A stretch of DNA of 64,000 nucleotides from Bryobacter aggregatus MPL3 (GTDB lineage: Bacteria > Acidobacteriota > Terriglobia > Bryobacterales > Bryobacteraceae): NCBI RefSeq assembly GCF_000702445.1, contig NZ_JNIF01000003.1:62001-126000 (forward strand), given 5' to 3'. The notes beneath the pieces were generated by a model. The model made no database searches, was not told the DNA's origin, and saw only the letters and a list, made by a program, of their open reading frames with translations. A program made the position numbers and the translations under genes. Shown here in pieces: positions 23,923 through 46,823 of the stretch (position 1 is its first letter; each line of letters opens with the position of its first letter).

Positions 23923-24306
23923 ATGTATAATTCCTTTGTGCGATTCGCTTTTCGACTCACTGCCCTGCTCTGCCTTTGCGTGTTCACGCTTTTGACACAG
24001 AGCTGTGCGAAGGACATCAACAATAAAGAAGCTGTAAAAGAGGCAGTGCTGAAACGTCTCGAAAGCGTCAGCGGATTGAACCTCGCCAATATGGATGTCG
24101 ACATCACGAGTGTCAGCTTCAGCGGCAATAGCGCCGATGCGAAGGTAGCCTTCAAGGCAAAGGGTTCCGGCGAAGCCATGTTGAACATGAGCTACAAGCT
24201 CGAACGCAAGGGCGACCTCTGGGAAGTGAAATCCTCCAGTGGCGGCATGGGCGGAGCCTCCCAACTGCCGGCAGGCCATCCTCCCGCTGCAGGCGGACAG
24301 AAGTGA
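23923..24306 (+). CDS. Small lipoprotein of unknown function
   Basis: 127 residues. The signal peptide LTALLCLCVFTLLTQSC ends in a lipobox (LTQSC), so the mature protein would begin at Cys 28 and be lipid-anchored. The mature part has an alternating beta/alpha pattern (VDITSVSFSGNSADAKVAF, MLNMSYKLERKGDLWEVKSS) resembling small SnoaL/NTF2-like or cystatin-like folds, and a Gly/Pro tail. No family recognised. Its stop overlaps the GTG start of the flavoprotein gene by 4 bases. Confidence 0.7.
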   Translation: MYNSFVRFAFRLTALLCLCVFTLLTQSCAKDINNKEAVKEAVLKRLESVSGLNLANMDVDITSVSFSGNSADAKVAFKAKGSGEAMLNMSYKLERKGDLWEVKSSSGGMGGASQLPAGHPPAAGGQK

Positions 24307-25502: not shown

Positions 25503-25504
25503 CC

Positions 25505-29278: not shown

Positions 29279-30462
29279 AGCTGGATGAGATCCAAGAGCT
29301 AGAGAAATCCTACCTCTTACAAAACTACGCCCGCTATCCGCTGGCTTTGGCAAGCGGTAAGGGCGTGTATGTTTATGACGTCGAAGGCAACAAGTACCTC
29401 GACCTTCTCTCCGGAATTGGCGTCAATTCCCTTGGGCACAATCACCCACGTATCACCAAGGTGATCCGGGAGCAGAGCGCAAAGCTGCTGCATACCTCGA
29501 ACCTCTACTACCACGAGTATCAGGGTAAGCTGGCCAAGAAATTGACGGAAGTGAGCGGCATGGACCGCGCCTTCTTTTGCAACTCCGGAACCGAGGCCGT
29601 GGAGGGCGCTCTCAAGATTGCCCGTTCCCATGGGCGCAAGATCCGTCCTGAGAAGTTTCATCTGATTGCCCTTGAGAACTCCTTCCATGGGCGCACCTTT
29701 GGCGCGCTCAGCGTGACGGGGCAACCGAAGTATCGGCATGACTTTGAACCGCTGTTGCCGGGCGTGACCTTCATCCAACGCGACGATGAGGCGGCACTCG
29801 AGGCGGCCTTCCATGAGAACACGGCGGGCATCATCCTTGAAGGGATCCAAGGCGAAGGCGGCGTGTTGCCGGTGTCGAACAGCTTCCTTGAGAAGGCGCG
29901 CGCGCTTTGCGACCAGTTTGACGCGATCCTGATCCATGACGGCATCCAGTGCGGCGTCGGGCGTCCGGGGACTTACTTCTCCTATCAGAACCTCGAGCGT
30001 CCGGTGTTTCCAGACGTGGTCGCCTTTGCGAAGCCAATCTCTTGCGGCTTGCCGATGGGCGGCATTCTCATGAAGCAGCGCGCAGCCGATTCGCTCGGCG
30101 CGGGCATGCATGGAACGACCTTTGGCGGCGGGCCGCTGGTTTGCCGGGTGGCACTTGAGTTCTTCGACATCCTCGATGACCTGTTGCCGCATATCCGCAA
30201 GACTGGCGAGTACTTCCGTGAGGAGCTGCGCGAGTTGGGGAAGAAGCATAGCTTTGTCAAAGAGGTGCGCGGCGCGGGTCTCATCATCGGCGTGGAACTC
30301 GATATGGAGTGCAAGAAGATGGTGACCGACGGCTTTGAGCAGGGCCTCTTGTTCAACGTCACGCACGACACGGTGCTGCGCTTCCTGCCTGCTTACATCC
30401 TCAAGGAGAAGCATGTCGATAAGGCGATCAAGGGCCTGAAGAAGATCTTCGCCAAGTACTAG
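29275..30462 (+). CDS. ArgD-like class III aminotransferase with variant active-site block
   Basis: 395 residues, the length of acetylornithine transaminase. Features: LDLLSGIGVNSLGHNHPRI, FFCNSGTEAVEGALKIAR, ENSFHGRTFGALSVTGQPKY, ILEGIQGEGGV. The PLP-lysine is Lys 253 in FAKPISCGLPMGG, where the family normally has AK-G-L-GGG-PIGA. The pyridine-nitrogen Asp is Asp 222 in IHDGIQCGVGRPG, but the usual following Glu of DEVQ is Gly 223. Most likely an acetylornithine/succinyldiaminopimelate transaminase or related enzyme; the altered blocks leave the substrate open. Its 3' end overlaps the convergent rhamnosidase by 4 bases. Confidence 0.8.
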   Translation: MKLDEIQELEKSYLLQNYARYPLALASGKGVYVYDVEGNKYLDLLSGIGVNSLGHNHPRITKVIREQSAKLLHTSNLYYHEYQGKLAKKLTEVSGMDRAFFCNSGTEAVEGALKIARSHGRKIRPEKFHLIALENSFHGRTFGALSVTGQPKYRHDFEPLLPGVTFIQRDDEAALEAAFHENTAGIILEGIQGEGGVLPVSNSFLEKARALCDQFDAILIHDGIQCGVGRPGTYFSYQNLERPVFPDVVAFAKPISCGLPMGGILMKQRAADSLGAGMHGTTFGGGPLVCRVALEFFDILDDLLPHIRKTGEYFREELRELGKKHSFVKEVRGAGLIIGVELDMECKKMVTDGFEQGLLFNVTHDTVLRFLPAYILKEKHVDKAIKGLKKIFAKY

Positions 30463-32972: not shown

Positions 32973-33002
32973 TCCTTTGACTGTATACGCGATGATGTCC
33001 GT

Positions 33003-33821
33003 ATGAGAAGTCTTTGCCTTTTTCTTCTTGGAGCCTGCCTCTGGGCTGGGACCGTTGAGGATGCCCGGAAGGTGTTGAGCGACGCCGCACATGGGAAGGA
33101 TGGCGACGAGCGACGCGAAACGGCACTTGCCTTGAGTCTTGTATATGCGAAGGATCCCGCCGCCTCTCTGCTCGACGAGATGCTGCGGGATAAGGATTAT
33201 CTGGTGCGCGTAGCCGCAGTGGACACGCTGGGGGAGCTGAACGATAAGAGCCGTCTTGGCTTGCTGAAGACCGCGCTCTCGGACGATGTGCCGGAGGTGG
33301 CCTTTGCGGCCGCAAAGGCGCTGTACGCATTGAAGACCCCAGAGGGCCGCGAGGCCTTGCAGTCTGTCTATGAGGGTGATCTCAAGGCGAAGAGCAACTA
33401 TGTCAAGAAAGAGATGATGAACAGTTGGCGGCGCTTGAAGTCGCCGAAGAGCGCGTTTCTGTTTACGGTGCAACAGGGCATTGGCTTCGTTCCGGTGCCG
33501 GGCATTGGGGCCGGCTACAACGCGATGATGGGCATCTTTGGCGATGCGGAGTTCAGCGCGCGGGCGGTGAGCCTGCTGATGCTGTGCGGCGATCGAGGCA
33601 AGGCCTGCAATGAGATGCTGGGCGCTGCCTTTAGCGACGAGGATTGGACGGTGCGCGCGGCGGCCGTGCATGTGGCGGCGACCCGGAACCTGACGGCGCT
33701 GAAAGGCCAGCTCGCCGTGTTGCTCAACGATAAGAAAGAAAAAGTAAGATTGCGGGCAGCAGCCGGATATTTGCGGATGGAGGCGGGGGTTCCGGCGAAG
33801 GCGTTGCCGAAGAAGCTCTAG
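33003..33821 (+). CDS. Secreted HEAT-repeat protein
   Basis: 272 residues from ATG 33003, giving a signal peptide (LCLFLLGACLWAGT). HEAT-like helical pairs occur at about 60-130 (YLVRVAAVDTLGELNDKS, VPEVAFAAAKALYALKTPEGR) and again at 205-265 (DWTVRAAAVHVAATRN, KVRLRAAAGYLRM), separated by a Gly-rich hydrophobic stretch (TVQQGIGFVPVPGIGAGYNAMMG) that may insert in a membrane. Function unknown; likely a scaffold in the periplasm. It diverges from the rhamnosidase with 30 bases between start codons. Confidence 0.78.
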   Translation: MRSLCLFLLGACLWAGTVEDARKVLSDAAHGKDGDERRETALALSLVYAKDPAASLLDEMLRDKDYLVRVAAVDTLGELNDKSRLGLLKTALSDDVPEVAFAAAKALYALKTPEGREALQSVYEGDLKAKSNYVKKEMMNSWRRLKSPKSAFLFTVQQGIGFVPVPGIGAGYNAMMGIFGDAEFSARAVSLLMLCGDRGKACNEMLGAAFSDEDWTVRAAAVHVAATRNLTALKGQLAVLLNDKKEKVRLRAAAGYLRMEAGVPAKALPKKL

Positions 33822-34354
33822 AACGGTTTGCTGGCCGCTTCGCTGTCTTTTCGCATTTGCTCGGCGGCCTCTTGGACTTCCTCGGTTTGGTAGAGGAGGA
33901 ACTGAGCGAGGTAATTTGGGTTCGTTCGTTGCAAATTTGATTTGCGCAGTTCGGTGATGGGGAGGCTCTTCGGGATTTCAACCTCGCGGCCCATGGCGCA
34001 GAGCTCCGCGTAAACTTCGTAGGCGGCGAAACGGTCTTTTTGGAGTTGGCGCAATTCCTTGAAGGCTCTGCCGGCGCGGCGTTCCTGCAGGTTGGCAATT
34101 TTGAGGGTTCGCTCCCAGTGGGAGAAGAGGGACGCGTCGCCGGGATTGGAACAGGAACGGCTTTCGGCCAGCAGCTCCAGTTTTCTCGCCCGCTTGGCCT
34201 GGAAACTGGCCCAAGCGTAGCGCTCGAAGGCCTCTTCTTCGATGGCGGAATCGGGTTGGCAATCTTTGCGCAGTGCAAGCGCGTAGGCCTGGTAGGCCTG
34301 TTCCTGTTCGGCCAAGAAACCTGGATTCGCTTCGTTTTGTTCTTGGGTGGGCAT
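33818..34354 (-). CDS. Acidobacterial hypothetical protein, helical, Glu/Arg-rich
   Basis: 178 residues from ATG 34352-34354, supported by AGGAAG 4-9 bases upstream. The N-terminus MPTQEQNEAN and the helix-rich middle (AIEEEAFERYAWASFQAKRARKLE-type segment) resemble a large acidobacterial family whose members usually begin with TQEQIEANR followed by a S-x-GP-x-T-x-EGK segment; that segment is absent here, so this may be a shortened member. No function is known. The stop overlaps the HEAT gene stop by 4 bases, convergent. A terminator-like hairpin sits just upstream of its ribosome-binding site. Confidence 0.6.
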   Translation of the reverse strand: MPTQEQNEANPGFLAEQEQAYQAYALALRKDCQPDSAIEEEAFERYAWASFQAKRARKLELLAESRSCSNPGDASLFSHWERTLKIANLQERRAGRAFKELRQLQKDRFAAYEVYAELCAMGREVEIPKSLPITELRKSNLQRTNPNYLAQFLLYQTEEVQEAAEQMRKDSEAASKPF

Positions 34355-34373
34355 GGGCTTCCTCTCGTTGTCC

Positions 34374-34403
34374 AAAATAGAAAAGCCCGCAATTGCTTGC
34401 GGG
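34374..34403 (-). terminator. Rho-independent terminator-like hairpin in the leader of the 33818 gene
   Basis: On the minus strand CCCGCAA-GCAA-TTGCGGG forms a perfect 7-bp GC-rich stem and is followed by CTTTTCTATTTT. It ends about 10 bases before the Shine-Dalgarno of the 33818-34354 gene. No minus-strand gene was found immediately upstream that it could terminate, so it may act as a transcription attenuator or end a short leader RNA. Confidence 0.6.
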
Positions 34404-34554
34404 ATCTCGCCATTACAGTAGCAGCCGGAAGAAAGGGGACGGCTGCGCATTGGGATTTGCCGGCCGCTCTCTTTGTTCGAAACACAGGGCTTAGCCCGGT
34501 ATTATTAATTTTTGTTAGCCCGTGACCGAGTGATGGCATGGCGAGAATTGCAGC

Positions 34555-35438
34555 ATGCTGGTTTTGGTTTGGCTTGCGTTCTGCTGGCACGACTTCTTCT
34601 ATTGCGTCGAACAGCCGCTTTGGGAAGACCTTGATGAGTGGGGCATTTTGCCGTCACCCAGGAGTTGCCGCAACAGGATGCTTCCCTGCCCGGGATGCGC
34701 TAATTTCGAACCAGATCCAGGAATCACAGCTGCTCCTGCCGCCTGCCGCTTCGCGCGCAGCCTTCTCTGCCGAAACGGTCACGCATGACTCCTATTGGAA
34801 GCTTGCGCCAGAGGAAAGCTTGCGGCGCGAAGAGGCACTGCGAGGCTTGCGCGATTGGCCCCCGCCACGAATCTGATTGGCTCGGCGACTGCTGGTGCGG
34901 AGCTGGATGTACCGGGGATGTGGCTGGCGGCGATTCTGGCGATCTTGGGATTGCTGCGTTTGGCCTGGCGGCGCGGCGTGAGCCTGGAGTTGCGCATTCT
35001 GCTGAGCGCGCCGGTGGCCTATCATTCGCTGGTGATTGCTCTCCCACAGCATGTGACAACAGGGATTGGCTGGTATCTGTGCTCAGTGATTGCGGCGGAG
35101 GCCGCCCTGGTGGAATTGGGATTGTACGAACTCGTGGGCAGACGCCGGGTACCTGGCCTCTGCTGGCTGTTTGTTGCTCTTGACTGTATGTGATGCACTT
35201 TCTACTGGCACCTTATTACTGGGGAATGATTGCGCATCGCAGTACCGGCGGCTTAGAGCCGTTTTATCTTAAGACACTATTGGGCCAATGGGGGGGGGAG
35301 ATTTGCCAGAGGTTCGCCGTACATGAGGCAAACGGCGTGGGCACAAGAACAGTGGGACTGCTTTGGTTCAGTTACTTGTGTTCGACGCTGGGGTTGGGTG
35401 TGATTGCCGTAACCGAGGCGCGGCGGAAGGCATCGTAG
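34555..35438 (+). pseudogene. Membrane protein gene broken by several frameshifts
   Basis: Fragments in different frames line up as one protein. A first segment begins MLVLVWLAFCWHDFFY at 34555. A second, in another frame, ends with LRREEALRGLRDWPPP at about 34866 just as a C5 run occurs. The next frame continues LIGSATAGAELDVPGMWLAA, then LRILLSAPVAYHSLVIALPQ up to VALDCM and a stop at 35191. Restoring one base near 35184 would join it to HFLLAPYYWGMIAH, which runs to 35438 with a final membrane helix. At least four membrane helices are implied. Its end overlaps the ribosome-binding site of the secreted propeller gene at 35444. Confidence 0.6.
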
Positions 35439-35443
35439 GAGAC

Positions 35444-36424
35444 ATGCTTCGATCATGGTTCTCCACTTACTCGGTTTGGTTGCTGCTTGCTTCGGCAATT
35501 GGATTTGCTCAGCCTGGAAGGATCGCTTATGAACGTGCCCCGGACGGAAAACCCGTCTGGCCGGCGCGGGATGTATACCGGATGAATGCGGATGGGTCGG
35601 GAGATACGGCGCTGACTACAGATGGACATAGCCATACGCCGAGTTGGTCGCCAGACGGGAAGCAGATTCTGTTTGTCCATGATGCGGCGCTGCGCGAACC
35701 ACGGCAGGGTCCGCCGTCGACTCATCATCCGGTGGAGTTGCAGGTGATGGATGCGGACGGCAAGAATCGCCGCCTGCTACTGCGGACCGAGGCGCCGATT
35801 TACTCGGCGAGGTGGTCGCCAGATGGGAAGGCGATTGCGGTGAGTGCAGCGCTGCAGCAAAGGAGTGAGAGTGGCGAGGAGATGCGGGGCGGGCTGTACC
35901 TGATTCCGGCCAGTGGGGGGACACCGAAGTTGCTGTATGCCAATGGTTGGAGCGCAGCATGGTCACCGGACGGGAAGCGGCTGGCCTTCACGGTGGAGCG
36001 ACCACGAGGCGAGTGGTCGATCTATGTTGGGAATGCGGATGGGTCGGACGCGGTGCCGATGCAAGATCTGCCTCGCTATGCGGGTTTGCCTGCCTGGTCG
36101 CCAGATGGGGAGTGGCTGGCTTTTGCTTCAGACAGGCAAGTGTTTGTGTCGCGCCCGGATGGGACAGAGAGGCGCGAGGTGGCGCCGCCGTCTGGCTGGA
36201 GTTGCCAGCGCATCGCTTGGAGCGGCGAAGGAGATGGCCTGGTGCTGGGTTGCTATTCGTCTTCCAAACCGTGCGGGTTTCTGGGAAACGTATCGTCCAC
36301 CGGCACCGTGTTACCGGATTGCGAGCGGCGGCTGTTTGGGATCGCTACGGTTGCCGGAGTGCGGGAAGTTCGGCAACTTGGGGAACATGATGCGACGGCT
36401 CCGGCGGTGAGCTTGCGGGAGTAG
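35444..36424 (+). CDS. Secreted TolB-like WD40/PD40 propeller protein (copy 1)
   Basis: 326 residues from ATG 35444 with AGGAG just upstream; a signal peptide (WFSTYSVWLLLASAIGFAQ) follows. At least five PD40 units carry the W-SPDG motif (PSWSPDGKQILFV, ARWSPDGKAIAV, AAWSPDGKRLAFT, PAWSPDGEWLAFA). The C-terminal SSTGTVLPDCERRLFGI and final LRE closely match the second copy at 38117, so the two are paralogues. Likely a periplasmic or surface propeller; no catalytic motif is visible. Confidence 0.82.
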   Translation: MLRSWFSTYSVWLLLASAIGFAQPGRIAYERAPDGKPVWPARDVYRMNADGSGDTALTTDGHSHTPSWSPDGKQILFVHDAALREPRQGPPSTHHPVELQVMDADGKNRRLLLRTEAPIYSARWSPDGKAIAVSAALQQRSESGEEMRGGLYLIPASGGTPKLLYANGWSAAWSPDGKRLAFTVERPRGEWSIYVGNADGSDAVPMQDLPRYAGLPAWSPDGEWLAFASDRQVFVSRPDGTERREVAPPSGWSCQRIAWSGEGDGLVLGCYSSSKPCGFLGNVSSTGTVLPDCERRLFGIATVAGVREVRQLGEHDATAPAVSLRE

Positions 36425-36468
36425 GTCGCATTGCGCCTGATGCGCAACGGCAAACTACTTATGATTTT

Positions 36469-37118
36469 TCAGAAGAAAGAAAGTTCTTTGGATCGGTCTT
36501 TGCCTGTAGTTGTGGCATATTCGATCCCACGAGCATCCAGCAAGGTGGTCAGGTCGGACACCACGGTCGGACGAGCCCACTCAAACCTCTTTTCATACAC
36601 ATCCATTGAACGATCCTTTGCAATGGACAGCCTTCTGCCGCAAATTGCGTCGAGCACCGCAAGCCATGCATTCGCAGTGTGGCTTAGAAGACTTAGGCTC
36701 TTGTAGACGCCCGCTCCGCAGCGGCCGCAGATTTCATCCGGACCAATAGCTGACCAGCGTCTTGCCCCAAGGCTGAGCCGTCCTCAAAAACTACTGCGTC
36801 TATCTGGATCGAGACCGAAACCATTTCTGAGAGCCATTCCATTGCGCTCTCCACTCGACTTTGCGCAGGCATGACCAGTGAGCCATTGTACTGAGAGAGC
36901 GCGCCCACCAGTGATATGAATTCTGTTGCGTCGGCTGCAACCACTGACTTAAGGTCGCTCGTGTCGGCAAAGATCTGAAAGCTACGTTTGACCATTCCAT
37001 CCTTGGCCGTGCTGACCCACACCACCGTAAATCCGATCAGCGGCTGCGGCGAACGATTCCAGAGCAACACAGAAAACGGCGCGAGCGTAGCCAGTTCGGG
37101 GCTCGTTTCAGAACTCAC
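36469..37118 (-). pseudogene. Frameshifted acidobacterial hypothetical gene
   Basis: The first segment (GTG 37118 to TAA 36693, 141 residues) contains FSVLLWNRSPQPLIGFTVVW and a later IDAVVFEDGSALGQDAG, a pattern shared with the intact gene at 51415 (FVIVNNNNLPVIAMTIRW, IDSVLFSNGSVIGLD). At about 36705 the frame ends in SAAAAERASTRA; one frame over, the natural continuation VYKSLSLLSHTANAWLAV runs to TGA 36469. The N-terminus also lacks a signal peptide and begins right after an in-frame stop. I read it as a decayed copy of that family; function unknown. Confidence 0.55.
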
Positions 37119-37212
37119 TCTTGCCTAGAATTCGGAACTGGAACGGGCAAACAGCGTGAGTCCACCAAGGCTTCGTCTGTCCACTGCGAGGGAGAGATTC
37201 ATGAGTTCTGGT

Positions 37213-38058
37213 TTAGGCCTCAGCCTGACTGGATCCTTCCACCTGGCTAAGCCAGCCTATGGCGAGCCAGGCTCCTAAGACAAAACTGACACCATAGCCA
37301 GCGAGCGGCACCGGAAAGGCGCCAAAGAAACAAGAGCATCCGATGCCTGCAAAATAGCCTGTCAACGCGACGGCTCCGGGCCGTTGGGCGTCGAGTAGCG
37401 GCGCCGCCATGCAGGCCACCAGCGCCAGGACTAGCAGGATTGCCATTGCGGGGTAGGTTGCCCAGGCTAGTTGGATGATGCCTTCTACGGCCGGCACCGG
37501 CAGCAAGGGATCGGGTCGCATCCAGACCCAGGCGAGGTAAGCCAGGAGGGCTCCTGTGCCGAGCAGTTTGTGGACTAGCAGCAGTCGCTTGCTCCAAAGA
37601 AGGATGCCCATGCCGAGCGTGAAACCGCTGGCTTGCGAGGCGTCTGGCTGGAGCAGGAGGATTGTCGCGATGACCGCGGCACTGAGTACCCTGCCGAGGC
37701 CAGGGACTTGGGTGCTGTCCAGAATCAAGATCGCAGTAGGCAGGAGCAGCGCGGCGGCATTGAGCTGGATGGGGCCGCAATCGAGCCAGCGTCTGACACC
37801 AGAGATACCTTCCTCATGGAGAGTGGCTGCCAGTGTTGCCATGGCGAGAACGAGCAGGGCCGTCGCATGCAACGAATTGGAGCGCATTCTTGAAAGAGCA
37901 AAGGCGAGTACGAGGCCGAGGAGCCAGGCGACTCCGTTGCGCACCCATAAGGAAAGCGGCAGCCCGGACAGCGCCATCGTCATCGCGCCGAGTGCGACGG
38001 CCAGCAAGGAAACAGCAGCGAAACTGAGGAACAACTGGAGGCGAGGAGCCCGGTGCAA
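37213..38058 (-). CDS. Polytopic membrane protein (FtsW/RodA-like appearance)
   Basis: 281 residues if started at TTG 38056-38058, which has GAGGCGG upstream and avoids overlapping the divergent gene; ATG 38125-38127 is the alternative. Eight or nine hydrophobic segments. The stretch GLGRVLSAAVIATILLLQPDASQASGF recalls the LQPD motif of FtsW/RodA glycosyltransferases, but the rest is not clearly SEDS-like, so this is only a resemblance. It diverges from the second propeller gene. A broken membrane-protein gene precedes the first propeller gene, but the two membrane proteins do not look alike. Confidence 0.6.
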   Translation of the reverse strand: MHRAPRLQLFLSFAAVSLLAVALGAMTMALSGLPLSLWVRNGVAWLLGLVLAFALSRMRSNSLHATALLVLAMATLAATLHEEGISGVRRWLDCGPIQLNAAALLLPTAILILDSTQVPGLGRVLSAAVIATILLLQPDASQASGFTLGMGILLWSKRLLLVHKLLGTGALLAYLAWVWMRPDPLLPVPAVEGIIQLAWATYPAMAILLVLALVACMAAPLLDAQRPGAVALTGYFAGIGCSCFFGAFPVPLAGYGVSFVLGAWLAIGWLSQVEGSSQAEA

Positions 38059-38116
38059 ATATTTCCGCCTCTCTTGCTTGTGGGAACAAGGTGCAGCAGC
38101 CTGGTGTCGGAGGGGA

Positions 38117-39037
38117 ATGGGCCGCATTTCGTTTCTGCTCTCCATTGTCGTAACTGCCACAGCGATCGCGCAAGAAGGCCGGATTGTGTACACGAAGTTC
38201 GATGGGCTGCCTCCGTGGCACAGCGATCTTTATCGTATGAATGGCGATGGATCGGAACGTGTCGCGCTGACCCGGGACGGGCAGAGCCGGAACCCACGCT
38301 GGTCGCCAGATGGGAAACGGATTGTCTTTGTACAGTCGTTTGCGATGGATTCCTCTCAGCTGGTGGTGATGGATGCGGATGGGAAGAAGCGACAGGTGCT
38401 GGCGAGGATGTCCTGGATCGGAAGCGCGACCTGGTCGCCCGACGGAAGCAGTTTCGCCATGGTGGCACGGACGCCATCGCTGGCCACACTTTCGCAAGAT
38501 CCGATCTGGTCTGGGTTGTATCTTTTGCCTGCTAACGGCAAGGGGAAGCTGCGACTGCTGTTTCCTTCTGTTGCCACAGCGTCCTGGTCGCCAGATGGGA
38601 AGAAGATCGCGTTTGCGAAGGAGGGGCCACGAGGGCAGTGGTCAGTTTGGGTTTCGCTTGCCGATGGGACGGGAGATCTGCGATTGACGGCGCCGGAACC
38701 GGATCTTGGAAATGTGGCCTGGTCGCCAGATGGGGCGTGGATCAGTGCGCAGACTGAGGGCAAGATTTTTGTGATTCGAGAGGATGGCAGGGGACGCAAA
38801 GCGGTGCCGATGCCGCGAGGCTGGTTGTGCAGGAGCACGGCCTGGACGCCGGATGCGAGGCATCTGGTGGCGAGTTGCTCAGCGGGCCCGGTGGGGTGCG
38901 GCGGCCCCTCGTCGACTGGCCAGATTCTGCCGCCTTGCGAGTTGCGATTGTTTCGCCTGCCGCTTGACGGGAAGAGCGCAGCTGTCCGGCTGGGTGATCC
39001 GCAGGCGAGGGAGGCAGATGTGAGCCTGCGGGAGTAG
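38117..39037 (+). CDS. Secreted TolB-like WD40/PD40 propeller protein (copy 2)
   Basis: 306 residues from ATG 38117, preceded by GGAGGGGA; signal peptide FLLSIVVTATAIAQ. PD40 repeats: PRWSPDGKRIVFV, ATWSPDGSSFAMV, ASWSPDGKKIAFA, VAWSPDGAWISAQ. The body and the C-terminal SSTGQILPPCELRLFRL match copy 1 at 35444, so the two arose by duplication and then diverged. The role is unknown; such propellers often scaffold envelope complexes or bind ligands. Confidence 0.82.
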   Translation: MGRISFLLSIVVTATAIAQEGRIVYTKFDGLPPWHSDLYRMNGDGSERVALTRDGQSRNPRWSPDGKRIVFVQSFAMDSSQLVVMDADGKKRQVLARMSWIGSATWSPDGSSFAMVARTPSLATLSQDPIWSGLYLLPANGKGKLRLLFPSVATASWSPDGKKIAFAKEGPRGQWSVWVSLADGTGDLRLTAPEPDLGNVAWSPDGAWISAQTEGKIFVIREDGRGRKAVPMPRGWLCRSTAWTPDARHLVASCSAGPVGCGGPSSTGQILPPCELRLFRLPLDGKSAAVRLGDPQAREADVSLRE

Positions 39038-39086
39038 ACGGGTTGGGTTTCGGAGCGGTTGGGAATCTGCTACGCTACGACTTTCT

Positions 39087-39105
39087 GTTGCAAGTGGATT
39101 GCAAC
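39087..39105. promoter_or_regulatory. Perfect 7-5-7 inverted repeat upstream of the kelch gene
   Basis: GTTGCAA-GTGGA-TTGCAAC, a perfect palindrome with a 5-base spacer, lies 41 bases before ATG 39146. Its size suits a dimeric repressor site. It has no U-tract and is too short for a terminator of the upstream propeller gene. Confidence 0.45.
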
Positions 39106-39145
39106 TTTAATCGATCATCGCCAAGATCGCAGCTCCGAGGAAACT

Positions 39146-40708
39146 ATGAAGAATCGCCTTCTGTTCGTGCTCTCTCTGCTTTGCGCTATCAGCCTCGCGC
39201 AGGCGCATTTTGTTTGGGTGTTATCTGAGGCAGGAGGGACCCGCGCGAAGGTGATCCTCAGTGAGGATCTGAAGACCACTGCAGAAGTGGATGTCGCACT
39301 CATTCAGGGCGCGAAACTTAGCGTTCGGGATGCGAAGGGGGTGGAGAACCCTTTGCAGCTCACCAAGGCGGGCGACTCGTATGTTGCGAGCCTGAGTGGG
39401 CACGGCCAGCGCGTGATTCATGGGGTGGTGAATCTGGGAGTGATGCAACGGGGGAATTCTCCGGAGCATGTTCTGATCTATTACCCGAAGGCGATTGTCG
39501 GCGATGCTTTTGATCCGTCGAGCCGGCTGGCAGCTGCGGTGCCGGTGGAACTGGTTCCGGTGCCAGCAACGGGCGGGTTGCAATTGCAGATGCTCGCGCT
39601 GGGTAAGCCGCTCGCCGATGCTGAGATCCAAGTGATTGAACCGGACGGAATGCAGCGGAAGATTCGCACCAATGCGCAGGGCTTGAGCGAGGTGTTGACC
39701 CAGAAGGGCCGCTATGGAGCGTGGTCCCGTTATTGGGAGACGAAGAGCGGCGAGCAGGACGGGAAGCAGTATGTACAGTTGCGGCATTACGCAACGCTGG
39801 TTTTTGATACGCCGCAGAATGTTGCGAAGCTCCCTTCCCTGCCCGAGGCGACTTCGAGCTTTGGCGCAGTGGTGAGCGAGGGCTGGTTGTATGTGTATGG
39901 CGGCCATATCTCACCGACACATTCCTATTCAACCGCTGCTGTGTCGGGGCAGTTTCATCGTTTGCAGCTGTCGCAACCGGAGACGTGGGAGAGGCTGGAG
40001 GCGGGTCCGGGACTGCAGGGGATGAATCTGGCGGCACATCAGGGGAAGATTTATCGCATCGGCGGGATGGAGCCACGCAATGCGCCGGGGACGCCTTCGG
40101 ACCTCTATTCAACTGCCGATTGTGCTCGCTTTGATCCTGCAAAGAAGCGATGGGAGAGTTTGCCGCCGCTGCCGCAGCCACGCTCGTCGCATGACGTGGT
40201 GGTGATCGGGAATCAGTTGTATGTCGTAGGGGGATGGGAGCTGCAGGGGAAGGCCGGGCAGAAGTGGCCGCAGACGATGGAAGTGATGGATCTGTCGGCG
40301 AAAACGCTGGCCTGGAAGAGCGTGAAGCAGCCGTTTCTCCGCCGGGCATTGATTGCCGCGGCGCATGAGGGCAAGGTGTATGTAATGGGTGGCTTCACGG
40401 ACCGGTCCAGCATTAGCGCCGAGGTGAATATTTATGATCCGAAGACGGGGGAGTGGAGCAAGGGTCCAGAGATGCCGGGAGGGAAAGAGGAAGCGTTTGC
40501 GCCAGCCGCTGTCGAGCATGGGCAACGCTTGTTTGTGAGCATTGCGAATGGGGCGCTGTATCGGCTGGGGAAGCAGTGGGAGAAAGTTGCGGAGACGACG
40601 CCGCGGATTGCGCATCGCATGGCTTCCGATGGGACACGGATTTATGTGATGGGTGGGGCTGAGAAGGGGAAGAATCTGGATTTGATCGAGGTCGTGACGA
40701 TTCCGTAA
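39146..40708 (+). CDS. Secreted fusion of DUF4198-like and kelch-propeller domains
   Basis: 520 residues from ATG 39146 with GAGG upstream; signal peptide LLFVLSLLCAISLAQA. The N-terminal part (AHFVWVLSEAGG, VILSEDLKTTAEVDVAL, later ADAEIQVIEPDGMQRKIRTNAQG) resembles DUF4198, a family linked to cobalt/nickel uptake in Proteobacteria. From about residue 250 kelch motifs follow: GAVVSEGWLYVYGGH, SSHDVVVIGNQLYVVGGW, ALIAAAHEGKVYVMGGFTD, RMASDGTRIYVMGGAE. I do not recognise this fusion as characterised; a periplasmic binding role is inferred. Confidence 0.8.
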   Translation: MKNRLLFVLSLLCAISLAQAHFVWVLSEAGGTRAKVILSEDLKTTAEVDVALIQGAKLSVRDAKGVENPLQLTKAGDSYVASLSGHGQRVIHGVVNLGVMQRGNSPEHVLIYYPKAIVGDAFDPSSRLAAAVPVELVPVPATGGLQLQMLALGKPLADAEIQVIEPDGMQRKIRTNAQGLSEVLTQKGRYGAWSRYWETKSGEQDGKQYVQLRHYATLVFDTPQNVAKLPSLPEATSSFGAVVSEGWLYVYGGHISPTHSYSTAAVSGQFHRLQLSQPETWERLEAGPGLQGMNLAAHQGKIYRIGGMEPRNAPGTPSDLYSTADCARFDPAKKRWESLPPLPQPRSSHDVVVIGNQLYVVGGWELQGKAGQKWPQTMEVMDLSAKTLAWKSVKQPFLRRALIAAAHEGKVYVMGGFTDRSSISAEVNIYDPKTGEWSKGPEMPGGKEEAFAPAAVEHGQRLFVSIANGALYRLGKQWEKVAETTPRIAHRMASDGTRIYVMGGAEKGKNLDLIEVVTIP

Positions 40709-40709
40709 A

Positions 40710-41150
40710 TCAGGAGCGGGCCTTCTCGATTGCAATGAGCATGGGCTCGGGCTTGCGGAGCAGATCGGCGAGGGTCCATTGGTCGAGCTGTGTCAGGAAG
40801 GCTTCGGTCGCCCGGGAGAGCGCGCCGCGCAGCAGGCAGGGATCGTAGATGGGACAGGCGTCGCTTGTGGGGGACATGCAGGGGGCCATGTAGAAGTCTG
40901 GCTCCGTGACGCGGGCAATGGCGCCGAGCCGAATGGTTTCGGGGTCGCAGGCGAGTTCGAGACCACCGGAACGGCCACGATGGGTGCGGAGATAGCCGTG
41001 TGCGGCAAGGGTTTGGGCCACCTTATTGAGGTGTGTGGAAGAGAGTCCGAAGTCTTCGGCGATCTCGCCGACGGTGGTGAGGGCAGGCGCCCGGAGAGCC
41101 GCATGGATCAGCATGCGGTAAGCGTATTCGGAATGAAGAGAAAGACGCAA
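40710..41150 (-). CDS. Rrf2 family regulator, NsrR-like
   Basis: 146 residues. N-terminal winged helix LTTVGEIAEDFGLSSTHLNKVAQTLAAHGYLRTHRG, the arrangement of NsrR/Rrf2 proteins. Three cysteines in APCMSPTSDACPIYDPCLLRG match the NsrR [Fe-S] ligand pattern, so it is probably a nitric-oxide-sensing repressor. The acidic-aromatic TEPDFYM block preceding the Cys cluster is also NsrR-like. It is divergent from the truncated hemoglobin gene, whose promoter carries a matching dyad; regulation of that gene is a strong contextual inference. Confidence 0.87.
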   Translation of the reverse strand: MRLSLHSEYAYRMLIHAALRAPALTTVGEIAEDFGLSSTHLNKVAQTLAAHGYLRTHRGRSGGLELACDPETIRLGAIARVTEPDFYMAPCMSPTSDACPIYDPCLLRGALSRATEAFLTQLDQWTLADLLRKPEPMLIAIEKARS

Positions 41151-41179
41151 CCAGACTCCAATTTAAAGTGGCATTTTAG

Positions 41180-41229
41180 TTGACAGTTTCATTTGCCAGA
41201 TGAGATAACTGGTATTCTATATTCCACTT
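41180..41229 (+). promoter_or_regulatory. Candidate promoter with Rrf2/NsrR-type operator for the hemoglobin gene
   Basis: A perfect -35 TTGACA (41180-41185) is followed after 18 bases by GATAAC as a possible -10. Immediately downstream an imperfect 10-3-10 dyad, AACTGGTATT-CTA-TATTCCACTT (41207-41229), matches in 8 of 10 paired positions, the size of NsrR-type sites. A longer-range 9-bp inverted repeat TTAAAGTGG/CCACTTTAA (41163-41171 and 41224-41232) flanks the whole element. Confidence 0.55.
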
Positions 41230-41280
41230 TAACGCTTCCGATGCGGCATTTGCAGACGCGGGGTGGAATTGGGTCCAGTT

Positions 41281-41736
41281 ATGTATAACAAAACGTGGCG
41301 CGCCACTGGCGTCGCCTTGATCCTTAGTGCCAGTATGGCATTTTGTCTTTCGGCTGCAGATGGCGAGAAGTCGCTATATCAGAGATTGGGAGGAGAGCCT
41401 GCGGTGCGCGCCGTGGCGGGCGGACTTGTCGATGCTATTCTGGCCGACAATCGAGTGAACCGCTGGTTTGCCCATGCGGCTTCGAGTGCAGCCAATACCG
41501 CCGCCTATAAGGCCAAACTGGCGGATTTCATTTGTCAGAATACGGGCGGGCCTTGCAAGTATAAAGGGAGCGATATGGTGTCGGCTCATACGGGGCGGGC
41601 AGTGACCGGAGAAGCATTCGATGCCGTGGTGGAGGATCTGATTGGGGTGCTCAATCATCACAAGGTTCCGGCGAAGGAGAAGGCCGAGCTGCTGGGGATT
41701 CTGGGTCCGCTGAAGTCTTCGATCGTACAGAAATAA
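41281..41736 (+). CDS. Exported group 1 truncated hemoglobin
   Basis: 151 residues from ATG 41281 (an in-frame GTG at 41263 is less likely). A clear Sec signal peptide precedes the globin (GVALILSASMAFCLSAADG), so the protein is predicted periplasmic. Globin features: SLYQRLGGEPAVRAVAGGLVDAILAD, FICQNTGGPCKYKG and SAHTGRAVTGEAFDAVVEDL, with the proximal haem His in the AHTG block. Truncated hemoglobins bind O2 and NO; next to an NsrR-like repressor, NO detoxification or sensing is likely. Confidence 0.88.
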   Translation: MYNKTWRATGVALILSASMAFCLSAADGEKSLYQRLGGEPAVRAVAGGLVDAILADNRVNRWFAHAASSAANTAAYKAKLADFICQNTGGPCKYKGSDMVSAHTGRAVTGEAFDAVVEDLIGVLNHHKVPAKEKAELLGILGPLKSSIVQK

Positions 41737-41785
41737 GAAGGATCGTCCTGCCTTGAGCGCAGGAGAGTCGATTCCAAAGTTTCTC

Positions 41786-41820
41786 GCCTCAAGGTCGTTT
41801 CCTCAATTCGACCTTGAGGC
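41786..41820. terminator. 12-bp hairpin between convergent genes
   Basis: GCCTCAAGGTCG (41786-41797) and CGACCTTGAGGC (41809-41820) form a perfect 12-bp stem with an 11-base loop between the hemoglobin stop and the convergent membrane-protein stop. It can terminate in both directions, though no long U-tract follows on either side. Confidence 0.6.
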
Positions 41821-41875
41821 AACATTCTTCGCTTTTCCGCATGAGGGGCGGCGGATCATTTCAGGGAATTCTGCC

Positions 41876-42526
41876 TTATTGATGTCCTCCTCCGGCGGCA
41901 ACCGGAAGCCTCCAGCGATACCGGATTGCCATAAAACGGAGACCAAAACAGAGCAGTGCGCCAATCGTCGCCGCGGCAGAGGACGGAAGATGTAACATCT
42001 GTCCGGTCACTACAACCGCAGCGCCAGCCAGAGCAGCAACGGCGTACAGGTCCGCGCGTAACACCACCGGAACCTCTGTGATGAGGATGTCACGCATCAT
42101 GCCGCCGCCGACTCCCGTCAGCATCCCCAGCAGCGCCGCCGCGATCGGATCCAAATGATAGGCCAGGGCCTTTGTCGCGCCCGTGACAGCGAAAAGAGCC
42201 AAACCGGCAGCATCGAAGATCAGGACCGAGCTACTCAAACGATCCATCAACGGATAGCAATAGAAGGTCAGTAGCCCCGCTGGCAGCGAAACCGCAATAT
42301 ACCGCCAATCGCTGAGCGCTGCCACCGGAGTGGCCCCAATCATGATGTCGCGTGCGATTCCCCCCGCATTGGCTGCCGCGAAGGACAACACGAGCACGCC
42401 AAAGAGATCCAGCCTGTGCTTGACTCCAGCCATGCCTCCGCTGAGGGCAAATACGAAGGTGCCGCTGAGATCGAGGATGACTTGAAACGTGTCCATCCGG
42501 ATTCCAAAGGGAAAAGGCTCCGCCAT
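41876..42526 (-). CDS. TRIC-type/UPF0126 seven-helix membrane protein
   Basis: 216 residues; an internal ATG at 42496 (MDTFQVILDLSG) is an alternative start. Duplicated three-helix unit with Gly-rich motifs: GTFVFALSGGMAGVKHRLDLFGV, AANAGGIARDIMIGATPV in the first half and GATKALAYHLDPIAAALLGM, GVGGGMMRDILITEVPVVLR in the second. This is the UPF0126/YadS family, structurally related to trimeric intracellular cation channels and possibly a K+ or amino-acid channel. It is preceded by the peptidase gene with a 17-base gap. Confidence 0.85.
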   Translation of the reverse strand: MAEPFPFGIRMDTFQVILDLSGTFVFALSGGMAGVKHRLDLFGVLVLSFAAANAGGIARDIMIGATPVAALSDWRYIAVSLPAGLLTFYCYPLMDRLSSSVLIFDAAGLALFAVTGATKALAYHLDPIAAALLGMLTGVGGGMMRDILITEVPVVLRADLYAVAALAGAAVVVTGQMLHLPSSAAATIGALLCFGLRFMAIRYRWRLPVAAGGGHQ

Positions 42527-42543
42527 TCTTTTTCGCTAACGCC

Positions 42544-43809
42544 TTACTTTCCCAGCCAGGCCAGCGTGGCGACAACCAGAGTTTCGACGCCAACCTCCAG
42601 AGTGGGATGGAGGACCGGGGCGAAATACGGGCTGTGATTCGTTGGCAGTGCACCAAGCGTGCCAGCCTTCTCTGCCTTCGCGTACACGTCACGATCCACA
42701 CCCCCAACGAACCAGAAGACCGACGGAACCTGCCACTCGGCTCCAAAACATCCAAAATCCTCGCTTGCCATCGTGGGATTGGTCTCCTCGACGCTATCGG
42801 CCGGAAAATGCGCGCGCAGCGCATCCCGCACTCGCCTGGCCGCATCCGGATCATTCTTTGTCAGGGAATAGTGGTCCAGTGGCGTGATCTCGGGCTTCCT
42901 CGGCGCACCTGAGGCCTCCGCTTCCGCATTCACAATCCTCTCGATGGCAGCAAGCACCAGCTTGCGCACGCCCTCATCGAAAGTGCGTACATTCAGCTTG
43001 ATGATGGCCTCGTCCGGGATGACGTTTTCCTTTGTGCCTGCCTGTAAGACGCCGATCGTAACGACGGCGGACTCCGTGGGTGGTACTTCACGCGAGACAA
43101 TGCCTTGCAGCCGCAGCACTGTTGCAGCGGCCATCACAACAGGATCGACGCTCGCCTCGGGCATGGAGCCGTGAGCGCCACGCCCGAATAATTTGATTTG
43201 CAGACTGTCCGCCGCTGAGGTCGTCACGCCGATGCGGCCGCCAATCACGCCAGCGGGCATGCACATCACATGCTGGCCGAGGATGACATCCGGCTTGGGG
43301 AATCGTTGGAACAGTCCATCGTCAATCATGGCCTGCGCGCCCTGGGCCGTCTCCTCCGCCGGTTGAAAGACGGCGAGCAGCGTTCCCTTCCAGGAATCGC
43401 GAGACTTCGCAAAGAGTCTGGCCGCACCGATCAGCCAGGTGACGTGCATGTCGTGACCACAGGCATGCATCACCGGCACACTCTTCCCATTGCTATCCGT
43501 CGTAGTGATCTTGCTGGCATAGGGGAGGCCGGTGGCTTCCAGAACCGGCAGCGCATCCATGTCGGCGCGGAGCATCACGGTGGGCCCCTCGCCGTTGCGC
43601 AGCAAACCAACGACGCCGGTCTTGCCAACTCCGGTGGTCACTTCATAGCCTGCGGTCCGCAAGTGGTCCGCGGCTAGGCCGGCTGTCCTCTTCTCCTGCA
43701 TCGAGAGTTCGGGATGAGAATGGATGTCTTGATAGATCATCTCCAGTTCTGCAAGCAAGCCATCGAGATTTGCCAGTACGGGATCGGACAGCGGGGATTT
43801 TACAACCAT
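42544..43809 (-). CDS. M20D family metallopeptidase/amidohydrolase
   Basis: 421 residues from ATG 43807-43809, supported by GAGGTG upstream. M20 metal ligands are seen in HPELSMQEKRTA, MHACGHDMHVTWLIGAARL, VFQPAEETAQGAQAMI and SEDFGCFG; dimerisation domain in the middle (GRGAHGSMPEASVDPVVMAA). Members include hippurate and N-acyl amino acid hydrolases; the exact substrate is not evident. There is no signal peptide, so it is cytosolic. Confidence 0.88.
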   Translation of the reverse strand: MVVKSPLSDPVLANLDGLLAELEMIYQDIHSHPELSMQEKRTAGLAADHLRTAGYEVTTGVGKTGVVGLLRNGEGPTVMLRADMDALPVLEATGLPYASKITTTDSNGKSVPVMHACGHDMHVTWLIGAARLFAKSRDSWKGTLLAVFQPAEETAQGAQAMIDDGLFQRFPKPDVILGQHVMCMPAGVIGGRIGVTTSAADSLQIKLFGRGAHGSMPEASVDPVVMAAATVLRLQGIVSREVPPTESAVVTIGVLQAGTKENVIPDEAIIKLNVRTFDEGVRKLVLAAIERIVNAEAEASGAPRKPEITPLDHYSLTKNDPDAARRVRDALRAHFPADSVEETNPTMASEDFGCFGAEWQVPSVFWFVGGVDRDVYAKAEKAGTLGALPTNHSPYFAPVLHPTLEVGVETLVVATLAWLGK

Positions 43810-44089
43810 TGCTCGGCACACCTCACACAAATGAGAGTAAACGTCGACCGGAGCTATTATTGCACTCCTCGACCTTCCGCCGCGCTCTCACAGACGCGCC
43901 GTTACGCTCGCCCAGAGCGAAACGGCCAGGCCCGCAGCAGGTCAGAAGACGCCAAAGACAATCTGGCATGCAACATTAGGGTCCAACTGATGGGAGTTTG
44001 ACACAGACTGAGCCATTTGATGCCAATTTGGTGGGGCTAGCGGTATCGGAAATTTAGAAAGTGGTTTAAAATCAAAGAACCAGCAAAGT

Positions 44090-44166
44090 CGGGGCGTAGC
44101 GCAGCCTGGTAGCGCACCTGCCTTGGGCGCAGGGGGTCGCGAGTTCGAATCCCGCCGCCCCGACCA
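44090..44166 (+). tRNA. tRNA-Pro (anticodon TGG)
   Basis: The 77 bases fold as a complete cloverleaf: acceptor CGGGGCG/CGCCCCG, D-arm GCGC..GCGC around AGCCTGGTA, anticodon stem CCTGC/GCAGG with loop CTTGGGC (anticodon TGG at 44124-44126), variable GGGTC-region, T-stem GCGAG..  with loop TTCGAAT, and an encoded CCA at 44164-44166. The last 22 bases before the terminal A recur at 46261-46282, which marks it as an integration target. Confidence 0.95.
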
Positions 44167-44303
44167 ATTCCTGAACTTACAACACCTAAGCTCAAAATGA
44201 AGGCTTGCTAGAGCCTCCGAATCGAGTTTTTAGGCAATCCGTCGAAAACCCCTCTTCCCCTGTACCGGTGCGCGCGGAAACACAATGTGATATCCCGTAC
44301 ACC

Positions 44304-44552
44304 ATGAGTTTTGGTTTCCGCAAGAGTTTCAGCTCCGGTCCGTTTCGGATGACGTTCTCGAAATCGGGCATCAGTCTCTCAGCAGGCGCTGGAGGCACGC
44401 GCCTCACGGCAGGGCCGCGCGGTACACACGTCTCCTTCTCAAAGGGAGGCTTTTCCTACCGGACGCGCGTGGACACACCAGGGCGGAACCCCATAGCTTC
44501 GCAGCCCACGCCGAGGCAACAGGAACCAACTGAACGCCCTGCCCGTCAGTAG
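44304..44552 (+). CDS. DUF4236 protein
   Basis: 82 residues from ATG 44304. The N-terminus SFGFRKSFSSGPFRMTFSKSGISLSAGAGG is the DUF4236 signature (normally FRFRK, LNLSKSG, S-G-G), and FSKGGFSYRTR continues it. DUF4236 domains are found in phage- and plasmid-associated proteins; the function is unknown. The C-terminus is Pro/Gln-rich. It precedes the J-domain protein by 69 bases, probably in one transcript, inside the tRNA-Pro att interval. Confidence 0.72.
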   Translation: MSFGFRKSFSSGPFRMTFSKSGISLSAGAGGTRLTAGPRGTHVSFSKGGFSYRTRVDTPGRNPIASQPTPRQQEPTERPARQ

Positions 44553-44621
44553 AAGCGCCCACTGTGGTTCCCACCCCCGAGATCTTCGGTGATATTCCGG
44601 CGGGATGCTGTCGTCGACGCA

Positions 44622-46304
44622 ATGAACCGGCGGATTCATCGACGGAACTACGCGCTACCTGCTGGCGTTGTCGTTTCCGGCGGGTTACTCGCAGCCTCCG
44701 CGCCCTGGCTGGTTGTTGCCGTGGTTGGTCTCTTCGTAACGATTCTCGTTGCGCTACAGCATAGCCGGTCCAGGTACAGCACCCTCTTGTATGGTGGCGA
44801 GGAAGAAACGACTCAACGGCTCGCGGCCGTCCACAGGGCAATCGCCGGTTTGCGCTCCGCTGATTCTCTGTGGTCAATCCGAGAGGTGAATCACGCAAAT
44901 GGACTCACTGCGCACCCTCCGACCTTGGGCCGGTTAAGAATTGACGGCAACGTTTCGCCTTTGCCGAAATACCTTCGGACAAATATCGTGCCCGCAACCC
45001 TGCAACTGAGCGACGGCACTCTTTACTTCTTTCCCGACCAGCTTTTCATTTGGCATGCTGGCCGGTTCGCCGCAATCGATTACCACGATCTCAAACTGCG
45101 ATTCAGGCGCATTCATTTTCTGGAGCGAGAGAGACAGCCGCCGGATGCAATCGTCAAAAGCCAAATGCGGCGCTCCCCCTCGGGAGGCAGCACAATCCCG
45201 GTGCTCTACTACGGTCTTGTGGAGCTTGCCGCCTCCGGCCTGGAGGTGCGGTTGATGACATCGCGCGTTGAAAGCGCTGAAGAGTTCGTGGCCCAAATGC
45301 AGGCGGTAACGGGCAGCCCGGAACCGGCTGGAACGGCAGACGAAAAGGAGGCGCTTTACACGAATTTCGACGCATGTGTACCGCTCTTCTACAACTTGGA
45401 CCCATCAGGCTTCAGACGGCTCCAGGCTCTTCGCGAGGCGTTCTCGATTATTGAGCAGTGCGATTGCGTCTGGCGGTATGTGGGTGAAGAGCGCGCAGAA
45501 GATTGGAAGCGCAACGCAGGAGCCGGGGCACTAATTACCCGATCCCGGATATCTCCGGCGCTTGTAGATCAATCTGCAGAGTTCGATTCAAACGTGGCAT
45601 TTGGCTTCTCCTTCGGAGGCCCGATTCTCTTTCTACTTCCGGACGGCGTTGTGCTTCGGACTGGAGAGCACTACCAGTCCCTTGGAAAAAACCTTGAGGT
45701 GAACGCGAGCAAAACGAACTTTCGAGAGGAAGAGTTTTCCCCGAGAGATGCGCAGGTGATCGGTCGAACGTGGCGCTACGTGAATCAGTCTGGCGGTCCC
45801 GACCGCCGCTTCAACCACAACCACCAGATTCCGATACACCTCTACGGACAACTAGAGATTCGCTGTGGCAGATGGAGAATCCGGCTCTGTTTGTCGCGCG
45901 CTGATGCGGCGGCTGAGTTCGCAACGGCACTCCAGTCCGCAATGAAAGACCAGTCCCATGAGACTCACACAGATCGGGCCGAGGCACCGCCGCCCAAGAC
46001 CGCGACGCCACCAACAAGTTTCACTTCAGCGCTCTCGAAATTGGGTCTCCAACCCGGAGCGTCCTTCGAGGAAGCCTCAGCCGCGTACAAGAACATGGCG
46101 GCGCAGAGTCATCCTGACAAAGTAGCGCACATGGCTCCAGAGTTCCGGGAGCTTGCCGAGCGGAAGATGCGTGAGTTGAATGCCGCATTCGAACAAATTC
46201 GGGGGGGGTTACAAGCAGCGCTGATACGGTATCAAAACAAATTGGGGCCAGGGCGGTGCATTCGAATCCCGTCGCCCCGACCGAGTCTCCGTTTGTTCGT
46301 ATGA
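44622..46304 (+). CDS. Membrane-anchored J-domain protein with internally duplicated unknown domain
   Basis: 560 residues from ATG 44622 (GTG 44589 is in frame upstream). A hydrophobic hairpin (LPAGVVVSGGLLAASAPWLV, VAVVGLFVTILVAL) sits at the N-terminus. Two copies of a roughly 180-residue domain follow: copy 1 about 60-240 and copy 2 about 265-465, sharing an LxAxxxA..I.....W start, a (F)LPD/FPD strand, a yGxxEl strand and a final (S)RxxaAxEFxxxlQ helix. The C-terminus is a J domain (YKNMAAQSHPDKVAHMAPEF; HPD motif intact), which should recruit DnaK. A G8 run (46201-46208) ends the J domain; with G7 the protein would stop as RGGYKQR at 46224, before the att repeat it now reads through. Confidence 0.78.
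   Translation: MNRRIHRRNYALPAGVVVSGGLLAASAPWLVVAVVGLFVTILVALQHSRSRYSTLLYGGEEETTQRLAAVHRAIAGLRSADSLWSIREVNHANGLTAHPPTLGRLRIDGNVSPLPKYLRTNIVPATLQLSDGTLYFFPDQLFIWHAGRFAAIDYHDLKLRFRRIHFLERERQPPDAIVKSQMRRSPSGGSTIPVLYYGLVELAASGLEVRLMTSRVESAEEFVAQMQAVTGSPEPAGTADEKEALYTNFDACVPLFYNLDPSGFRRLQALREAFSIIEQCDCVWRYVGEERAEDWKRNAGAGALITRSRISPALVDQSAEFDSNVAFGFSFGGPILFLLPDGVVLRTGEHYQSLGKNLEVNASKTNFREEEFSPRDAQVIGRTWRYVNQSGGPDRRFNHNHQIPIHLYGQLEIRCGRWRIRLCLSRADAAAEFATALQSAMKDQSHETHTDRAEAPPPKTATPPTSFTSALSKLGLQPGASFEEASAAYKNMAAQSHPDKVAHMAPEFRELAERKMRELNAAFEQIRGGLQAALIRYQNKLGPGRCIRIPSPRPSLRLFV
46261..46282 (+). repeat. Downstream copy of the tRNA-Pro 3' end (att site)
   Basis: TTCGAATCCCGTCGCCCCGA plus CC, 21 of 22 bases identical to tRNA-Pro positions 44144-44165. 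The 5' half of a tRNA is absent here, so it is not a second tRNA gene. The J-domain reading frame currently runs through it. Confidence 0.8.
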
Positions 46305-46823
46305 CTCAGCTCTGCCGGCTATTCCCGTTTGCTCTTGGATGCTGGGGTGGCTATGCACAGTGGTGAGGCCTGATCCGTTGGATCACGAATGAGGATTCCT
46401 TGCAAAGACGATTCCCGAAAGGGATGAGAGGGTCAATCCGTTCCAAGAAGGACTTGCCGCCGTCCACTTTGATGGAAAACAGCTCTTCGGACGCAATTTC
46501 TCGATCGCAACGCGTTTGCGTCAGGTTTGGCTCACTTATCTCAATCACGATGGGAAAGTCGCGTACGAATATTCCACGCGTCAATGATTTGTATCGCCTT
46601 TGTGGCCCAAATTGGGCACGCGTGACGCTGTCCTTTTGAGCTTGGTGTGTCGCTATTTATGTTGTTGAAACATTTTTGCGACGTAAGAATCTTCAGGTAG
46701 CGTGTCTTTCTGTGCTCGCTCTGTTGCGCGCGGTGAAAGCGATTGTATTTATTTTTTCGGGAATCTCTTTCTAGCGGTCGAATTTCCATTTGCGACCCGG
46801 GTTCCGGACTCAGGAGTTTGAAG
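46305..46823. other. Intergenic stretch with no convincing gene
   Basis: About 520 bases between the island and the DUF481 gene. Short open frames on both strands (for example 46351-46584 minus and 46400-46639 plus) overlap each other and show no family motifs, signal peptide or ribosome-binding site. Base composition is lower in GC than the surroundings. Probably flanking junk of the integration event plus the promoter region of the DUF481 gene. Confidence 0.5.

Follow-up and report, generated by a model that had tools for sequence, protein, structure and literature searches.

Genomic islands at tRNA genes, as mapped in Islander, carry an intact tRNA gene at one end and a displaced fragment of its 3′ end at the other (PMC4383910). 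The window, as we call the whole stretch of 64,000 nucleotides from Bryobacter aggregatus MPL3 that was analyzed, shows both of these ends at a tRNA-Pro gene, but the locus between them differs from the Islander islands in having no recognized integrase and one gene only, within 2.1 kb. Cis-mobilizable elements (CIMEs) are defined by att copies that are kept while the genes for integration and transfer are absent (PMC5704250). This combination was also found at the window locus; no ancestral ICE or IME with the same gene was identified, and the descent from such an element is presumed. Regarding the gene itself, the DUF4236/core proteins of phrog_17982 share DUF4236, a membrane stretch and a core domain with it, and both halves of the window gene match them, whereas the window gene has the core twice, carries a J-like domain in addition and shows a break in its linker. 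A related core also stands in front of six SngA proteins of Shango, a system of TerB, ATPase and helicase whose action against phages has been shown by experiment (PMC10250203); the two window ORFs differ from it by the absence of a TerB domain and of a PADLOC match. DjlA-like membrane co-chaperones, finally, resemble the window protein in their membrane stretch and C-terminal J-like domain, but the window protein has PH-like cores, no TerB match and a score far below the cut-off of the DjlA model.

On balance, the locus probably represents an integrase-less, CIME-like remnant at tRNA-Pro(TGG) with one broken gene of a membrane PH-like/J-domain protein that may have served as a sensor in defence or stress. 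The DUF4236/J-domain pair had seemed unfamiliar as a described system to an earlier, sequence-only reading of this DNA, and this impression was borne out by a literature search, which yielded no published description among the matches listed. Neither did these matches contain a description of the one-gene origin, the two-core J form, the tRNA-end habit in Bryobacterales or a core common to SngA.

The tRNA-Pro(TGG) end and its displaced copy

ARAGORN recognized a single tRNA in the window, namely tRNA-Pro(TGG), and the following features define the footprint around it:

44090..44166, + strand: tRNA-Pro(TGG), the putative integration target (ARAGORN; Rfam RF00005, 62.8 bits)
44144..44165, + strand: att-like repeat, the proximal copy, within the tRNA 3′ end (repeat search, pattern search)
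46261..46282, + strand: distal att-like repeat, a displaced 3′ fragment of the tRNA with one mismatch (repeat search, pattern search)

The two copies comprise 22 bases with 1 mismatch, have the same orientation and are spaced by 2117 bases. The recurrence of the tRNA 3′ end about 2.1 kb downstream with a single mismatch, as noted in the sequence-only reading, was hence confirmed by both the repeat and the pattern search. When the 22-base pattern was searched for in the 5.75-Mb genome at up to 3 mismatches, it was found at four places, two of them being the window copies and the remaining two, with 2 mismatches each, lying inside other tRNA-Pro-like genes; the same pattern read backward as a control had no match in the genome. 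At 1 mismatch or less, the expectation for random bases is 4e-5 per genome and 2e-8 per 5 kb.

An intact tRNA with a displaced 3′ fragment beyond it, i.e., the outline of a tRNA island in the Islander sense, was therefore found, whereas the integrase expected inside was not. No such ORF was recognized between 44166 and 46261 when ORFs of at least 60 aa were judged by eye and Pfam families were scanned for the two main ORFs only, and within this scope the earlier statement that no integrase lies between the copies still stands. As a possible history, recombination at the 3′ end of the tRNA by a tyrosine integrase that worked in trans or was later lost would have left the two att-like copies 2.1 kb apart.

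Reading frames between the repeats

Two cargo genes, one for a DUF4236 protein and one for a membrane J-domain protein, had been proposed to lie between the copies. The features detected there are:

44304..44552, + strand: DUF4236 half of the gene (PF14020, 46.5 bits, above the cut-off of 27; ATG at 44304, homologues start at the same Met)
44543..44603, + strand, limits approximate: linker with an in-frame stop and a stretch matching the linker of the relative G592 better in another frame (score 50)
44589..46304, + strand: second half of the gene, a 571-aa open frame (GTG start assigned by the tool, later starts possible)
44661..44768, + strand: hydrophobic membrane stretch, residues 25-60 of the second ORF (Kyte-Doolittle scan)
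44736..45368 (stretch modelled), + strand: core domain copy 1, without GGPDRRF (second phrog_17982 match; AlphaFold; Foldseek with PH domains ranked first, E 1.4e-3)
45366..45983, + strand: core domain copy 2, with GGPDRRF (phrog_17982, E 1.5e-33; AlphaFold)
46041..46193, + strand: J-like domain with HPD motif (PF00226, a weak match of 24.2 bits, below the cut-off of 27.8; Foldseek)

The 571-aa ORF reads through the distal repeat and has its stop at 46302-46304. Both ORFs are in one frame and are divided by a single TAG at 44550-44552. The phrog_17982 profile (390 positions) matches both of them, with positions 1-75 in the first and 183-384 in the second ORF, in which the core is found twice; the parts typical of phrog_17982 (DUF4236, membrane stretch and core) are all present in one window frame, with the in-frame stop between them. 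A tblastn search with L106-L109 likewise crosses the TAG in one frame. In four homologues from Acidobacteriota (L107, L108, L109, and L112), DUF4236 and J-domain lie in a single protein and both exceed the Pfam cut-offs; the J-domain cut-off is passed by L107-L110 and L112. Further one-frame members of the family, recognized by sequence and HPD motif in a scan of genome contigs, are L157, L159, L160, and L198 (the sequence of L156 is that of L109, and L164 is truncated by the end of its contig).

The closest relative is G592 (L295). On its reverse strand, a single open frame covers DUF4236, the linker, the membrane stretch and two cores, with an identity to the window of 69% over 80 codons in the first half and 63% over 381 codons in the second. 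The G592 copy stops before any J-domain, and a distal repeat was not found in this genome. In a tree of 86 cores whose bootstrap had not settled, a long branch, separate from the main J-fusion group, unites window and G592 (100/100). The score of 50 between the G592 linker and the window linker stretch in another frame was reached by 3 out of 2000 shuffles, which indicates that the window linker contains a frame excursion besides the stop. In another relative, G542 (L296 8534-9687), DUF4236 and core are located in two overlapping frames, suggesting that the linker has been broken or split more than once in the DUF4236/core family.

Since G592 has a single open frame and the two window ORFs share one frame with one TAG between them, the DUF4236 ORF and the J-domain ORF are, to judge from the sequence, two halves of one interrupted or derived split gene. 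As far as the reading frames tell, the gene is therefore either broken in the window or split in a derived way, and this genome probably does not produce it as a single protein any more. Of the proposed two-gene cargo, the presence of a DUF4236 ORF and of an ORF with a weak J-domain match between the copies can be retained, whereas the two-gene module gives way to one gene in two pieces, given the shared frame and the unbroken G592 copy.

A working split gene, with a DUF4236 peptide and a membrane core/J protein that are made apart and act together, could account for the same arrangement. It would fit the differences between window and G592, which fall mostly at third codon positions in both halves, the presence of start codons past the stop in the second ORF, and the two overlapping frames of G542. 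Nevertheless, one-frame homologues are common, the linker carries a frame excursion as well, and the selection seen against G592 may largely predate the break. In addition, no sigma-70-type promoter-like site was found in 44000-46800 (by consensus scan only), and altogether we consider a working split unlikely. Even less likely appears an intact gene in the cell, with the stop and frame changes being assembly errors. In favour of such errors, this one gene has several frame problems and, close to its end, a G homopolymer, yet five conserved window genes (24303-30459) each align in one piece and over nearly their full length to the congener G003, and a sixth aligns over part of its length, when the best piece per gene is compared. 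As these genes align unbroken, frame errors are not general in the window; moreover, G592 and G542 show that family copies decay or split elsewhere, too.

Relatives of the gene and their position at tRNA ends

The window gene was missing from all 40 relatives compared, six of which match in the J-domain only. The core of the second ORF was present in 7 of 237 genomes of the family (own genome included), and the phrog_17982 profile matched in 22/257 genomes of the order and 20/396 of the phylum, many of them by DUF4236 alone. A search of genome contigs with the second ORF alone gave 29 pattern matches, none of which was confirmed. The search with alignment A1 yielded 343 relatives, the best 80 of which served as genome loci, plus 31 viral relatives. 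According to these searches, the DUF4236/core family spans phyla and occurs on chromosomes, plasmids and phages.

Within the order (Bryobacterales), the gene lies 138-532 bp past the 3′ end of a tRNA in four of the seven core-bearing genomes, counting that of the window:

window: 138 bp (tRNA-Pro)
G592: 461 bp (tRNA-Thr)
G583: 388 bp (tRNA-Pro(TGG), opposite strand)
G582: 532 bp (tRNA-Lys)

With respect to the suggestion to search beside other tRNA genes, family genes were hence found just 3′ of tRNA-Thr, tRNA-Lys and another tRNA-Pro. In the other three genomes (G556, G461, and G542), the core gene is not found beyond a tRNA 3′ end, with G556 and G461 being represented by contigs of 5-6 kb. 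None of 17 DUF4236-only loci of the order (15 genomes) was near a tRNA 3′ end, some of their flanks being cut by contig ends; the comparison with the core-bearing genomes other than that of the window (3/6 vs. 0/17) gave a Fisher p of 0.011. Across the 80 genome loci, many of which have flanks that are short or cut by contig ends, a tRNA was detected in the examined flank at 14, and in 12 of these 14 its 3′ end faces the gene (p 0.006). Two loci are counted in both of these tests (L164 is G583 and L198 is G582), and the tRNA-Pro calls of ARAGORN in L188 and L234 look odd, with lengths of 92-93 bases. Among control loci, a nearby tRNA was found for 0/19 DUF481, 0/6 J-domain and 3/19 M20-peptidase loci, the latter representing one tRNA-Gly place in three congeners. 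At the phylum level, two DUF4236 loci without a core also adjoin a tRNA. Considering these and the M20-peptidase loci, the habit is not special to the core.

Repeats of a tRNA end enclose a family gene in three islands from other phyla. In L161 and L213, the repeats measure 17 and 18 bases, respectively, and an integrase is present in both. In L165 4607-17660 (Glaciihabitans), an exact tRNA-Met repeat of 36 bases bounds a 12.9-kb island in which a DUF4236/core gene and a kinase-like ORF are located; no integrase was found among the four ORFs scanned. At the same tRNA-Pro as in the window, G011, a member of the same family (L068 5044-13227), harbors a complete island of 8.1 kb with a Phage_integrase (tyrosine integrase). 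Its repeats of ~50 bases are nearly identical, which makes it probable that this island is recent.

A comparison with the tRNA-Pro loci of five congeners (G001, G003, G004, G005, and G007) did not reveal an empty site with matching flanks. In all five, the gene block found at 24.2-30.46 kb of the window precedes tRNA-Pro by 0.1-5.2 kb; the downstream side differs, and the right flank of the window had no real match at these loci. Similarly, no tRNA was detected within flanks of up to 1.5 kb at 19 loci with DUF481 homologues (one of them an own paralogue). At the loci compared, the check for an empty site has come out negative. About 13.6 kb lie between the end of the conserved block (30.46 kb) and tRNA-Pro in the window (30460-44089), in comparison to the 0.1-5.2 kb of the five congeners, and we read this gap 5′ of tRNA-Pro as a second insertion or rearrangement. 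ORFs at 33132-34390 of the window share 36-44% identity with hypothetical proteins encoded next to tRNA-Pro in G001, G006, and G007.

With no integrase and no empty site, little contrast in G+C between island and flanks, and a gene content past tRNA-Pro that varies among congeners, it might be argued that no island exists, i.e., that a rearrangement left the distal copy as a tRNA scrap and that the gene came to lie there by chance. Against this, the gene lies between the copies and beside a tRNA end, as do its relatives at tRNA-Thr, tRNA-Lys and another tRNA-Pro, and the same site holds the complete island of G011. We regard such a coincidence as very improbable. The proposal of a tRNA-end island is thus supported in part, by the footprint, the rarity of the gene, the same-site island and the relatives 3′ of other tRNAs, whereas an empty site with matching flanks was not found among the loci compared, and the missing distal repeat of G592 also counts against it.

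Folds, links to defence and possible function

The core domain has neither a Pfam match nor a sequence relative in the PDB. AlphaFold modelled copy 2 together with the J-domain (45366-46220) at a pLDDT of 90 and copy 1 at a pLDDT of 86. In Foldseek searches with the core models, PH domains rank first among solved chains (best E 1.4e-3, probability 0.99); the match is remote, with no E of 1e-3 or below, TM of at most 0.45 and an rmsd mostly near 10. These predicted structures are suggestive, though no proof, of a PH-like core. Compared with solved J domains, the model of the J-like domain gave a probability of 1.0 at E of 0.08 or more, and the second ORF shows the HPD motif in this J fold. Viral models matched by Foldseek are mostly J-domain proteins; one match, at E 0.036, is annotated as ‘Bacterial PH domain protein’. 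Among the 91 family proteins listed, the majority have neither the HPD motif nor the length of SngA.

PADLOC was run on 14 proteins, picked mostly for their length, TerB or J-domains. SngA was matched in six of these (L111, L155, L184, L211, L222, and L223) and PDC-S48, a candidate defence protein, in one (L176); one more match was SngB, in the ORF after SngA in L155. In these proteins the related core stands in front of SngA and, in L176, in front of PDC-S48. The family match begins at DUF4236 in L184, L211, L222, L223, and L176, while in L111 and L155 the core was seen and Pfam gave no DUF4236. For the two window ORFs, PADLOC gave no match and Pfam no TerB, and the Shango trio of SngA (TerB), SngB and helicase was not found. 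As a separate observation, the DUF4236/core part in L176 10001-12658 (Mycobacterium) is joined to PDC-S48 with a DEDDh exonuclease match.

The neighbourhood of the family loci was also scanned for defence genes. At 69 loci, with near-duplicates dropped first, 117 adjacent ORFs were compared with 93 ORFs at more than 6.5 kb, and the families matched numbered 221 vs. 85, with the listed ones having 1-3 members each; no clear excess of defence neighbours was apparent. The suggestion that the cargo is a defence or stress module consequently has indirect support, from the joining of the core to SngA and PDC-S48. Since the neighbour scan gave no clear excess, a defence role of the DUF4236/core/J protein stays a tentative proposal, less likely than not.

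Ordinary envelope proteostasis by a membrane co-chaperone of the DjlA type, unconnected with defence, a reading that competes with the functional part of our interpretation only, would agree with a J-like domain on a membrane protein and with the best NCBIfam match of the second ORF, the co-chaperone DjlA (E 5.2e-8, 32.8 bits vs. a cut-off of 162). A patchy spread (seven of 237 family genomes), the mobile settings and the same core joined to SngA and PDC-S48 speak against this reading, and we consider it possible, if rather doubtful.

For the interrupted gene as the remaining content of the island, now in two pieces with DUF4236, membrane stretch, two PH-like cores and J-like domain, the following function might be envisaged. 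Anchored at the inner membrane by its membrane stretch, the protein may bind a membrane ligand or partner through the PH-like domains, as modelled, and its J-domain could bring DnaK/Hsp70 to a membrane client. Such a protein might sense phage attack or envelope stress or act as an effector in them, with a presumed loss of function in the window copy. DnaJ takes part in phage sensing by bNACHT25 (PMC12169576). Together with the fusions to SngA and PDC-S48 and the anti-phage activity of Shango, this leads us to infer a membrane-held sensor or scaffold with Hsp70 recruitment as its output. Speculatively, and with low expectation, membrane stretch and PH-like core, usually with DUF4236 first, may constitute a portable membrane sensor module of phage-defence proteins, to which the single-gene units at tRNA ends would add a J-domain output, their Hsp70 recruitment being parallel to the SngA/TerB output of Shango.

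The DUF4236/core family can be put to the test: it has a conserved domain that is without a Pfam match, extends across phyla, is found several times at tRNA ends and is joined to SngA, which belongs to a defence system shown by experiment. If the module does sense infection, it would reveal the way in which some Shango proteins contact the membrane. The J-domain would then be a built-in part of a defence protein and not a host helper, as DnaJ is for bNACHT25 (PMC12169576).
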